This document shows, in pieces, positions 18,118 to 43,575 of a stretch of DNA of 43,575 bases. The position numbers were made by a program, and so were the translations under genes. The notes beneath the pieces were generated by a model that was not told the DNA's origin, did no database searches, and saw nothing but the letters and a program-made list of their open reading frames with translations. This DNA is from Ilumatobacteraceae bacterium (GTDB lineage Bacteria; Actinomycetota; Acidimicrobiia; Acidimicrobiales; Ilumatobacteraceae), in assembly GCA_009691255.1 (NCBI GenBank), contig SHUT01000014.1, forward strand, positions 1-43,575, read 5' to 3'. Position 1 is the stretch's first letter; every line of letters starts with the position of its first letter.

Positions 18118-19065
18118 TTAGCTTCCTATTCCGGTCTCAAGACGCTCTATCACCCTTAAACGCGCGGCCGTTGAACGCCGATTTAAAGTCTGTTCTGCAT
18201 CTGATGGAGTTTTTGATGTCCGCACTCGACGCACCAGTGCTTGTCGACCACACACGCAGGATAAGTTGGCCGGACATGTGCAGCCTCCAGTTTCGGCTTG
18301 ACGCATAATGCTCTTTGTGATGCGATCTTCGCCAGAGTGGTATGTCAAAACAGCCAATCGCGCACCTGGGGCAAGGGCTGTAATGACCCCAGAGAGTGCA
18401 ACAGGAAGAACGGCAAGCTCATGATTCACCTCAATACGAATCGCTTGGAATGTGCGCTTCGCCGGGTGGCCACCACGACGTCTGGCGGCAGCGGGAATCG
18501 CCGCGATGACCACTTCAGCTAGCTCAACGGTCGTGTTTAATGGGCGCGCCAGAACAATTGCTTTGGCTATCCGCCCAGCAAATCGTTCATCGGCATTTTC
18601 TCTCAAAATTTGAGCCAGATGTTCCATGCTCGACTCATTAACCACCTGCAATGCGCTCAGGGATTGTGATTGATCCATCCGCATGTCAAGTGGCGCTTCA
18701 AGTCGATACGAAAATCCGCGCTCACCTTGGTCTAACTGCGGGGAGGACACACCCAAATCAAATAGGGCTCCCGCAAGTGAGTGGGTATTTGTTTGCTCCA
18801 GCACTTCAGCAACGCGATCAAAGCGAGCGTGCCGGAGGGTGACACGCTCGCCAAGAGGAGACAATCTCGATTGAGCAAACGCAAGTGCCTGCTGGTCGCG
18901 ATCGATGCCCACAAATTTTATATCAGGATGAGCCTCTAGCACTGCTTGCGCATGTCCAGCTCCACCCAAAGTCGCATCAAGAAATGTTCCGGTAGTAAGG
19001 CCAGAAAAAACTTCCAAAATTTCATTGAGCATGACTGGCGCGTGCTCAAACATGTTGTTGCTCAC
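18118..19065 (-). CDS. rsmH: 16S rRNA (cytosine-1402-N4)-methyltransferase RsmH (MraW)
   Basis: SAM-dependent methyltransferase modifying C1402 in the decoding site of 16S rRNA. The N-terminal HAPVMLNEIL and the SAM-binding ATLGGAGHAQAVLE and GIDRDQQAL are typical. So are LFDLGVSSPQLDQGERGFSY, PLDMRMDQ, RRGGHPAKRTFQAIRIEVN and LTYHSGEDRITK. I chose the GTG at 19065 (315 residues), since AAGGG lies exactly 8 bases upstream. An ATG at 19053 is the alternative. The open frame extends to 19245 but that segment is not RsmH-like and is RNA structure instead. Its binding site lies inside a long stem described separately. Confidence 0.96.
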   Translation of the reverse strand: MSNNMFEHAPVMLNEILEVFSGLTTGTFLDATLGGAGHAQAVLEAHPDIKFVGIDRDQQALAFAQSRLSPLGERVTLRHARFDRVAEVLEQTNTHSLAGALFDLGVSSPQLDQGERGFSYRLEAPLDMRMDQSQSLSALQVVNESSMEHLAQILRENADERFAGRIAKAIVLARPLNTTVELAEVVIAAIPAAARRRGGHPAKRTFQAIRIEVNHELAVLPVALSGVITALAPGARLAVLTYHSGEDRITKSIMRQAETGGCTCPANLSCVCGRQALVRRVRTSKTPSDAEQTLNRRSTAARLRVIERLETGIGS

Positions 19066-19193
19066 AACACCGGCCCTTGGCAGTTTCCCAGACAGCATAT
19101 GCCCCCGGGATTTCTCCCCAGAATGGGCGCGATGACAGCGGGCGGAGTTAAAGCTGCGCACCGTACCATCCGGGAAACTGCCAAAGACCGGTG
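19066..19193 (-). ncRNA. Structured rsmH leader RNA, possible counterpart of the mraW RNA motif
   Basis: Positions 19068-19089 and 19172-19193 form a 22-bp inverted repeat around 82 bases. In the minus-strand transcript all 22 positions pair, because the only two departures from perfection are G-U wobbles. On the plus strand the same sites would be C-A mismatches, which argues for selection on the RNA. Inside are a CCCA-TTC-TGGG hairpin and a possible CAGC/GCTG stem, giving a branched fold. The descending arm contains the AAGGG used by rsmH, and the stem ends 2 bases before its GTG. A conserved mraW RNA motif upstream of mraW has been described for Actinobacteria; identity with it is inferred from position and cannot be proven here. 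Confidence 0.6.
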
Positions 19194-19241
19194 TCTTTGA
19201 CGTGATTGTTGCATGCAAGAATTCATTCCGCACATCGCGTA

Positions 19242-19658
19242 TCACTTGCTGTCTCCAGCAATTTGCTGTGTGCCTGCATCAGTGATGCGTTCGTGTCTTG
19301 TGGGGTCCCAGATCTCGACTCGGTCAAATGAGCCAGCAACAATCACTTTTGAGTTAAGTGATAGTCCGGCGTAATCACGTAATTTTTCTTCGATATTGAT
19401 TCGACCCTGCGCATCAATAGACACTTCAACGGTGTTGGCAGCTAGTGCTCGTTGTTGATTACGATCAATTTCTCCTGAACGAACTTTGTTTAACGTCTCT
19501 TGTACAACTTGCTCAAATGCGTCAGCCGTCAATACATCAATGCACTTGTCTTGGCCAAAGGCCAAGTAACAACGAGGCTCTAGACGAGGTCGAAAAGCAG
19601 CAGGCAGAGCAAGCCGACCCTTGGGGTCTAACTGCCGCTCATGGACTCCTACAAACAC
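19242..19658 (-). CDS. mraZ: Transcriptional regulator MraZ
   Basis: DNA-binding protein with two SpoVT/AbrB-like domains that represses or tunes the dcw operon. With the GTG at 19658 it starts FVGVHERQLDPKGRLALPAAF, the exact family N-terminus, and the second domain repeats the pattern as VEVSIDAQGRINIEEKLR. Length is then 138 residues. GGAG lies 5 bases upstream of this GTG. The frame is open for 34 more codons, but these run through the leader hairpin and promoter and resemble no MraZ. First gene of the dcw cluster; a repeat array fitting its own operator covers the promoter. Confidence 0.94.
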   Translation of the reverse strand: MFVGVHERQLDPKGRLALPAAFRPRLEPRCYLAFGQDKCIDVLTADAFEQVVQETLNKVRSGEIDRNQQRALAANTVEVSIDAQGRINIEEKLRDYAGLSLNSKVIVAGSFDRVEIWDPTRHERITDAGTQQIAGDSK

Positions 19659-19877: not shown

Positions 19878-20549
19878 TCAGCCCAGATGAGCAGCGAGTG
19901 CCATTAATACATCGCCTGGTTCACAATTAACCTCGGCCACGTCTAACGAGCAAAGAGCATCTTGAACCTCTTGACTCACAAAAAGATGTGCGTATTCTTG
20001 GGGACGCCATTGGCGATACAACACGCACTGAAATCTCGCACCATCACGATTGCGACGCTGGCTGATGCCAATAACTTTGCGACCAGCAGAGAGCACTTCT
20101 CCGCTAGCCATGCCAGCAAAACACACTGATCGCGAAACGACAGGCTTCAATATTGGTGCTGAATACACGTCGAGATCAAGAACCCCAAATTGCTGCAAGA
20201 CTTCGCTCCACACATGGCCAAGCCAGAGTGCGCTTCTTGAAACATCATCTACCCAATGAGCATCTTTGCGCGTGATGACAACGTCAATCCATACAGTTGA
20301 TTCGGAATCGAGATACACTGCGCCGCCGCCACTTCGGCGTCGAACAACATCGATCTTTTCTTGACGTGCACGATCGGTATCAACGTCTGACTCATCTTGA
20401 GCAGACCCCAGCACGAGCGCAGCATCAGTTGGCCGACACAGCCATACACCCCGCCTCCACTCCAAATCATTTGCATGGAATTGGCGTGCAGTGCCGACGT
20501 AGTCGTTGACAGCCCAAGCATCGGGGTTCGAGGCTAAATGACTAGACAC
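19878..20549 (-). CDS. Lipoate-protein ligase A family protein
   Basis: Biotin/lipoate A/B ligase-fold protein of 223 residues. The substrate-binding loop is RRRSGGGAVYLD at residues 70-81 and the catalytic lysine is K158 in AGRKVIGISQRR. Members either attach free lipoate using ATP (LplA) or transfer octanoyl groups (LipM/LipL). The sequence alone does not separate these, and no separate C-terminal accessory domain is present. Start is GTG. HNH ends 17 bases upstream; 219 bases separate it from the mraZ start, holding the dcw promoter region. Targets would be E2 subunits and GcvH, which are not in this window. Confidence 0.8.
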   Translation of the reverse strand: MSSHLASNPDAWAVNDYVGTARQFHANDLEWRRGVWLCRPTDAALVLGSAQDESDVDTDRARQEKIDVVRRRSGGGAVYLDSESTVWIDVVITRKDAHWVDDVSRSALWLGHVWSEVLQQFGVLDLDVYSAPILKPVVSRSVCFAGMASGEVLSAGRKVIGISQRRNRDGARFQCVLYRQWRPQEYAHLFVSQEVQDALCSLDVAEVNCEPGDVLMALAAHLG

Positions 20550-20566: not shown

Positions 20567-21064
20567 TTAACTTGCTTGCGCCAAATACGGCTTCCATTCT
20601 TCAGGCACCGAACCCACAGAAAAAGTTATCCATGCTGTCTCAAGAGGCACGAGCGGAATCGTGCGTAGCTTCATCCCTGCTTCATCGGGAGTGCGATCTC
20701 TTTTATGGAGATTGCAAGAGCGGCAAGCAGCCGTCACGTTTTCCCAAATATGTTCCCCACCCCGTGATCGGGGATGAACATGGTCAATACTGTCGGCGGG
20801 ACCACCGCAATACGCACACTTGTGATTGTCACGGGCCAAGATTGCCCGGCGGGACAAGGCAGCATGGCGATGATACGGAACCTTCACCACATATCTGAGC
20901 TTGATCACGAGTGGCGTGGGTACTTGCAGTTTCTCTGCATGCATCACTGACCCATCGTCTTCGACGATGTCGGCTTTATCGCACAGCACTAGACAAATAG
21001 CGCGTTGACACGACACGACGCTCAGCGGTTCGTACGTTGCATTAAGTACGAGCGCGCTTTTCAT
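20567..21064 (-). CDS. HNH endonuclease family protein
   Basis: Protein of 165 residues with an N-terminal block (LVLNATYEPLSVVSCQRA) and a C-terminal HNH nuclease domain. Two zinc-binding CxxC pairs are at C83/C86 and C114/C117. The catalytic DHVHPRSRGG is at 94-103, the Asn at 109 (ENV) and the final His at 120. This exact architecture is widespread as a single-copy housekeeping gene in Actinobacteria and Cyanobacteria and is not associated with a mobile element here. Its physiological substrate is not established. It starts 59 bases downstream of the small protein at 21124-21411. Confidence 0.88.
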   Translation of the reverse strand: MKSALVLNATYEPLSVVSCQRAICLVLCDKADIVEDDGSVMHAEKLQVPTPLVIKLRYVVKVPYHRHAALSRRAILARDNHKCAYCGGPADSIDHVHPRSRGGEHIWENVTAACRSCNLHKRDRTPDEAGMKLRTIPLVPLETAWITFSVGSVPEEWKPYLAQAS

Positions 21065-43385: not shown

Positions 43386-43575
43386 CGACGGTGAGTCAGT
43401 TGGGTGACCGCGGCACAAGCAATTGTGTCGAGGAAAGTCGGGACTCCATAGGGCAAAGTGCTAGTGAAAACTAGGTTGGGGCGACCTGACGGACAGTGCA
43501 ACAGAGAGTAAACCGCCGATGGACTAGCAATAGTCACAGGTAAGGCTGAAACGGTGCGGTAAGAGCGCACCAGCG
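43386..43575 (+). ncRNA. rnpB: RNase P RNA, 5' part (runs off the window)
   Basis: Catalytic RNA of RNase P, which trims the 5' leader from tRNA precursors. Universally conserved blocks are present in order: GAGGAAAGTCGGGACTCC near 43430-43447 (5' side of P4), ACAGAGAGTAAACCGCC near 43500-43517, and GGTAAGGCTGAAACGGTG then GCGGTAAGAGCGCACC near 43540-43571. This is the bacterial type A arrangement. The 5' end is estimated from the TACACT element and the P1 strand and may be a few bases off. About half of the molecule lies in the window. Confidence 0.95.

Follow-up and report, generated by a model that had tools for sequence, protein, structure and literature searches.

The leader between mraZ and rsmH is a structured RNA common to many Acidimicrobiia, with a conserved structure in a fixed rsmH context. 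It had no match in the Rfam library; whatever its ligand may be, a strong case can be made for a new Rfam family, and our literature search gave no description of an Acidimicrobiia rsmH leader. The likeness of one of its loops to the target of the encoded enzyme suggests, as far as sequence goes, that RsmH may control its own synthesis.

In the window, by which we mean the whole 43,575-nt stretch of DNA that was analysed, folding of the leader (19067-19194, minus strand) led to -79.7 kcal/mol and a z of -7.96, with a fold as good in none of 200 dinucleotide shuffles; the wider stretch around the leader gave a z of -6.46, again equalled in 0/200 shuffles. A first-pass annotation of this DNA had described an uninterrupted 22-bp helix, which corresponds to the outer portion of P1; the stem is real but its length was understated: P1 consists of 31 contiguous pairs (19194-19164 with 19097-19067), six of them G-U, and encloses two further hairpins, P2 (19163-19130) and P3 (19128-19101), resulting in a three-way junction. 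As had been stated, the two imperfect positions within the 22 bp are both G-U on the minus strand, and the AAGGG at 19078-19074 lies within the 3' arm of P1. The helix does adjoin the GTG at 19065-19063, P1 ending at 19067, one base before this codon. An inverted-repeat search of the window (arms of at least 18 nt, spacing up to 300 nt) led to four pairs, the longest with 26-nt arms at 19067-19092 and 19169-19194 (88% complementary), in which all three non-Watson-Crick positions are G-U on the sense (minus) strand. When the genome was searched, the leader was detected as a single full copy, with the other seven matches being 14-26 nt long and two of these representing its own arms; a mobile palindrome or repeat is ruled out by this single full copy. 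The leader core (19080-19181) is matched by our covariance model R1, introduced below, with 85.2 bits. The parts of the leader and its flanking genes are:

19067 to 19194, minus strand: whole leader element, P1, P2 and P3 in a three-way junction (fold; match of model R1)
19164 to 19194, minus strand: 5' arm of P1, 31 nt (fold; covariation in alignment A3; outer pairs conserved in the genus)
19067 to 19097, minus strand: 3' arm of P1, 31 nt, containing a G-rich run (fold; covariation)
19130 to 19163, minus strand: P2 hairpin (fold; covariation of helix 2)
19137 to 19148, minus strand: conserved P2 loop motif ACUCCGCCCGCU, position 19142 being the equivalent of 16S C1402
19101 to 19128, minus strand: P3 hairpin with GGGGAGAAAUCC (fold; missing from the short variant of the class)
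19074 to 19078, minus strand: AAGGG within P1, candidate Shine-Dalgarno sequence for the internal GTG (sequence; pairing)
18118 to 19065, minus strand: rsmH from the internal GTG (PF01795, E 6.5e-101)
18118 to 19245, minus strand: extended rsmH frame from the GTG overlapping the mraZ stop (ORF of 375 aa; candidate main start in the genus)
19253 to 19256, minus strand: GGAG, candidate Shine-Dalgarno sequence for the GTGA start (kept in 27/27 genus loci)
19242 to 19658, minus strand: mraZ, with an inferred GTG start at 19658 (PF02381, E 4.6e-20; stop TGA overlapping the GTG at 19245)

Just 5' of mraZ (19800-19680, minus strand) there are repeated GTGG/TGGGG runs, which look like what we take to be MraZ-binding repeats. 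Further 5' on the same strand, Pfam searches detected a lipoyl ligase-like protein (19878-20549) and an HNH endonuclease (20567-21064). At the other end of the window (43392-43575, plus strand) lies the beginning of a bacterial class A RNase P RNA (124.7 bits), a gene cut by the contig end.

Among 61 genomes of relatives an rsmH match was obtained in 58, and 30 loci were kept, one of them (L033) on a contig without mraZ; the same kind of fold, judged by eye, was observed in all 29 mraZ-rsmH leaders of relatives that were folded. Within the order, the exact loop-plus-P3 pattern matched in 30/118 genomes, the genome of the window included, whereas the reversed pattern gave no match in the same 118 genomes; all 30 matches begin 67-412 nt 5' of the first rsmH codon. 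Subsequently used for wider searches was model R1, built from 39 copies (alignment A1) that derive partly from loci chosen by the exact loop pattern, so that the counts may miss some copies whose loop is very different. With strict filters R1 matched 161/296 Acidimicrobiia genomes, a lower bound, and gave no match in the remaining 135. In a draw across the phylum 18/396 genomes were matched, every one belonging to the Acidimicrobiia by kinship labels; L054 (35 bits) and L099 (62.7 bits) also match, and as their source records are titled 'Actinomycetes bacterium', the restriction to one class rests on these labels. Of 20 misses listed in the phylum draw, 15 were taken into a targeted search, and in six of them a sense-strand match 5' of rsmH could be detected (E of 0.0013 or lower in four; weak in L222 with 0.049 and L225 with 0.076). 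No match was obtained in this search for the other nine, in some of which the mraZ stop seems by eye to overlap the rsmH start, and some relatives seem to lack the leader altogether.

The position of the leader is fixed with respect to rsmH. In a set of 97 copies from 98 sources (L041 without a match; L023 left out), all 97 share the strand of rsmH and precede its first codon by -7 to 342 nt, and in another set of loci rsmH was present at 44/44, on the same strand in all 11 for which the strand is known. A short form of 71-77 nt (L177-L179 and L229-L248) has the same loop and, by eye, is without P3.

Compensatory changes support the fold. RNAalifold analysis of alignment A1 showed two-sided changes in 17/24 pairs. 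For the 97 copies (alignment A3), aligned by fitting to R1 and hence biased toward its structure, 91.1% of cells were paired compared to 81.4% in shuffles, and two-sided changes occurred in 27/33 pairs and 341 cells compared to 14.7 and 90.6 in shuffles (0/500 each); controls with a slid structure did not exceed 18 pairs and 91 cells. The covariation check in relatives that the first-pass annotation had proposed thus came out positive, with two-sided changes at 17/17 core P1 pairs. No trend was seen towards homologous leaders losing their pairing without compensation, the contrary evidence named there: pairing is kept in 96.5% of P1 cells. Nine of the 15 phylum-draw misses, however, seem leaderless. 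Helix 2 (P2) showed two-sided changes at 5/8 pairs with 83.2% of cells paired. The inner pairs of P2 as well as P3 shift register; two of these P2 pairs, for example, have 34 and 38 unpaired cells.

We were interested whether the leader belongs to the mraW RNA motif RF01746, described by Weinberg et al., 2010 (PMC2864571), since a divergent or extended member of it had been considered besides a new class. Both RNAs are found 5' of mraW/rsmH in Actinomycetota, both between mraZ and rsmH (flanks PF02381 and PF01795 for our leader), and both have a long stem and a C-rich terminal loop. At gathering score (50 bits) the window contained no RF01746 match, and at E up to 10 neither 19000-19300 nor the best-scoring copy, L146, was matched. 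With strict filters it was found in 0/119 Acidimicrobiia genomes, the control Corynebacterium glutamicum being detected, and model R1 in turn gave no match at 10 RF01746 loci. Across the phylum RF01746 was detected in 10/159 genomes, eight above the cut-off. At four of four other Actinomycetota loci it lies in the interval 5' of rsmH, and as three of these four matches are below gathering score the family seems to be under-detected. RF01746 matches with UUCCCC loops were seen 5' of rsmH in L063, L084, L107 and L109, and L084 has a second match at 1450-1573. RF01746 is one long hairpin with a ACUUCCCC loop and internal unpaired positions, whereas our leader is a three-way junction with ACUCCGCCCG; the single hairpin, the ACUUCCCC loop and the GGCCUCU/GGGACC segments were all absent, by eye, from the leader folds. 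A further difference is the rsmH start codon that lies 2 nt past the P1 core in 33/97 copies of our leader. Among the leaders examined, no intermediate between the two types was encountered. With neither covariance model matching the other family and with architecture and loop being different, a divergent RF01746 member is extremely improbable despite the shared location, and we favour a separate Acidimicrobiia-type rsmH leader, i.e. the new class.

The 16S rRNA of the order reads ACACCGCCCGUC at a site similar to the P2 loop (L206-L213), which we take to be positions 1396-1407 in E. coli numbering. The window loop, ACUCCGCCCG, matches 16S around C1402 at 9/10 bases. In the single 16S stretch used from the order (L209, 1530 nt) every other site matches the loop 10-mer at seven bases or fewer, and CCGCCCG occurs only once. 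According to PMC5053481 and PMC13317604, C1402 is the base that is methylated by RsmH. The loop is ACUCCGCCCGCU in 126/163 copies, a count including 60 stretches that contribute to this loop tally but not to the counts of rsmH context, and in 101/133 when loci picked by the loop pattern are excluded. In the latter set CCGCCCG is present in 115/133 loops, and the equivalent of C1402 is a C in 132/133 loops (162/163 in the larger set). When loops were shuffled in 20,000 trials, 9/10 matches over C1402 arose in 1.25% and the exact 7-mer in 2.6%; among the 87,126 13-mers of the window 92 reach 9/10 over C1402 and 254 the exact 7-mer. Unlike 16S, 160/163 loops have a U at the position of A1398, and the two bases past the match (1406, 1407) also differ from 16S. 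Twelve loops depart from CUCCGCCC, of which only L225 and L226 gain A1398 and thereby the 16S octamer ACCGCCCG, losing C1397; the other ten show no move towards 16S, one of them (L281) even losing C1402. A loop-loop pairing of CUCC (P2) with GGAG (P3) was considered by eye and dropped: several copies show GAU or GAA in P3, and the short variants keep the loop although P3 is missing.

These data also bear on an alternative that we regard as possible but doubtful, namely that the same regulatory leader responds to another ligand (a metabolite, an sRNA or a different protein, e.g. RsmI or MraZ) and resembles 16S by chance. A three-way junction closed by a start-region helix is the usual layout of a riboswitch, which our leader shares, and another ligand would agree with the U that the loop retains and 16S is missing, with a likeness arising in about 1-3% by shuffling, with the ten of 12 departing loops that do not approach 16S, and with the ACUUCCCC loop at the equivalent place in RF01746, by eye a poorer match to 16S than the P2 loop. 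However, the single good 16S match of the loop is the target site of the very enzyme encoded downstream, and the short variants lose P3 but keep the loop, unlike a multi-helix ligand pocket.

The first-pass annotation had proposed a translational switch for rsmH. A conserved start-region helix with compensatory changes is indeed present; as a switch acting directly at the rsmH start, the proposal does not extend to all copies. An in-frame rsmH start lies up to 4 nt from the P1 core in 34/97 copies, and in 33/97 it lies exactly 2 nt past the core without an intervening stop. In these 33 copies pairing with the 5' side involves the first base of the start codon in 29 cases, the second in 32 and the third in all 33, the 3' arm before the start reads GAGGGGCUGC, CGGGGGGCUGC or a close variant in most, and mismatches are frequent at the outer P1 offsets 2 and 7. 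In 14 further copies a start codon 2 nt past the P1 core opens an out-of-frame ORF. The stop of this short ORF overlaps the rsmH start (ATGA or GTGA) in L132, L145, L152, L157 and L170, and in L171 the rsmH TTG begins 4 nt ahead of it; for the remaining eight no stop/start link to rsmH was detected. The other 50 copies are without a start codon at this position. That the start is occluded in every copy was rejected, as 63/97 lack an in-frame start up to 4 nt from the P1 core, and from the split into 33, 14 and 50 copies the rsmH start is occluded frequently but not always.

Two further explanations address the stem itself. Uninterrupted helices of 31 bp are typical double-stranded substrates, and the length of P1 would fit an RNase III processing site, with a plain insulator separating mraZ from the dcw genes as a variant; neither accounts for the conserved loop or for the 33/97 copies in which the helix contains or adjoins the start codon, and we consider them very improbable. 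Alternatively, the stem could serve as a protein-free methylation sensor, in which ribosomes carrying m4C1402 start better on stem-occluded mRNAs, so that translation of rsmH depends on the product of RsmH. In Bacillus subtilis, mRNAs with early start-codon stems need MraW-modified (m4C1402) ribosomes, as reported in PMC13317604; there, however, a strengthened stem fully blocked translation, and P1 is far longer. As such a sensor would also mean positive feedback and leave the conserved loop and the three-way junction without a reason, it appears quite unlikely.

A different situation was observed in the genus of the window, where the locus was obtained from 28/32 genomes and 27 loci hold mraZ. 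At 27/27 of these the rsmH frame runs without a stop codon from the end of mraZ across the hairpin, and GGAG is followed by a GTGA overlapping the mraZ stop (19245-19242 in the window). The distances from mraZ to the motif are 51, 60 and 105, with at least two changes on the rsmH tree, and those from the motif to rsmH are 14, 17, 20, 23, 29, 35, 38, 59, 71 and 89, with at least nine changes. With L023 left out of this analysis, 11/11 inferred length changes are multiples of three, for which the chance is (1/3)^11 = 5.6e-6 if changes are free. None of the 27 copies has a start codon 2 nt past the P1 core, L015 and L032 having an out-of-frame ATG 1 nt past P1. From these frames and distances the hairpin of the genus probably lies inside an extended rsmH frame starting at GTGA. 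The AAGGG and GTG, taken in the first-pass annotation as the operating rsmH start, are doubtful as the main start, given that an open frame is maintained from GTGA onwards; they may serve as a secondary or internal start in the genus.

One could argue that the genus hairpin is mainly coding, representing an N-terminal extension of RsmH from GTGA that slows or stalls elongation, or that it is a leftover, an explanation we consider unlikely. The kept reading frame with its GGAG and GTGA, the length changes and the missing start codon past P1 all agree with it. Changes by codon position, given as sums over non-independent pairs, were 0.067/0.071/0.125 for the core, 0.141/0.262/0.397 for the 5' flank and 0.146/0.078/0.364 for rsmH in the clade of the window, and this some third-position excess in core and 5' flank is counted as evidence for translation. 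In the largest cluster, however, the figures were 0.057/0.040/0.047 for the core and 0.110/0.054/0.388 for rsmH. The core of this cluster shows no third-position excess, which is strong in rsmH and mraZ, and a conserved peptide as the cause of core conservation is therefore not favoured. The stop-free frame is weak as proof of translation because frame 2 is also nearly stop-free (two stops in 27 loci), and the genus retains the outer P1 pairing, with 23-27 of 27 copies paired at each offset 1-10. Across the order the frame from core to rsmH is not kept, frames 0, 1 and 2 all occurring. Codon positions without strong selection on a peptide, together with a frame that is kept, we read as an extended frame in which it is mainly the RNA that dictates the sequence.

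For the leader as a whole we consider it plausible, if somewhat short of probable, that it is a cis-acting rsmH leader in which P1 represses translation and RsmH, reading a mimic of C1402, stabilises P1. Our analysis establishes that structure and position are conserved, that the pairs covary, that the start region is located in or beside P1 in some copies and that the loop resembles the 16S site; RsmH as the ligand, the direction of control and any effect on translation are inferred. P1 would pair the rsmH start region, or a coupled short upstream ORF, with its 5' arm, so that translation would be low as long as P1 is closed, and it would present P2 with a loop copying 16S 1396-1405 around C1402. 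RsmH idle from 30S subunits would bind this loop, keep P1 closed and repress its own synthesis, and might methylate the loop when bound. When unmethylated 30S subunits are plentiful, RsmH would depart from the leader and rsmH would be translated. In the genus of the window, the RNA within the extended frame would act on passing ribosomes or on the internal GTG. This autogenous reading is supported by covariation, position, spread, start occlusion, ORF coupling, the match of loop and 16S and the sgm/kgmB precedent discussed below. It is weakened by the short match, the U at A1398, the departing loops, the 63/97 copies without a near start, the seemingly upstream start in the genus and METTL15, a mitochondrial relative that bound RNA in vitro without sequence specificity according to PMC10828496. 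In addition, RF01746 leaders having ACUUCCCC in the same place, with its poorer 16S match, count against a mimic. More tentative still, though possible, is a substrate-mimic switch in which RsmH reads and perhaps methylates the C1402 copy in its own mRNA, matching its supply to new 30S subunits, and which in the genus lies inside the coding sequence and is translated as an N-terminal extension.

Among known systems, the MraW-dependent stem-loops of cmpA and isp are similar to the leader in having a start-region stem and a link to m4C1402, and differ in belonging to genes other than mraW and in their far shorter stems; the accessible part of PMC13317604 mentions no leader of the type described here. 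The genes sgm and kgmB resemble rsmH in encoding 16S decoding-site methylases and being said to be autogenously regulated. Their products are reportedly 16S G1405 methylases, for Sgm also by title, and autoregulation is said to proceed via a copy of CCGCCC in the leader. The titles of the respective papers speak of translational autoregulation for sgm and autogenous regulation for kgmB (Kojic 1996; Vajic 2004). In contrast to rsmH, these are resistance genes of antibiotic producers with another target base. We know of no conserved three-way junction in sgm or kgmB leaders. In ribosomal-protein leaders the mRNA carries a copy of the rRNA site recognised by the encoded protein, which serves to repress translation; the product there is a ribosomal protein, whereas here it is a modification enzyme. 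If the autogenous reading is true, the rsmH leader would be a housekeeping case of a leader copying an rRNA target, a strategy that, to our knowledge, is known only from antibiotic-resistance methylases and ribosomal proteins.
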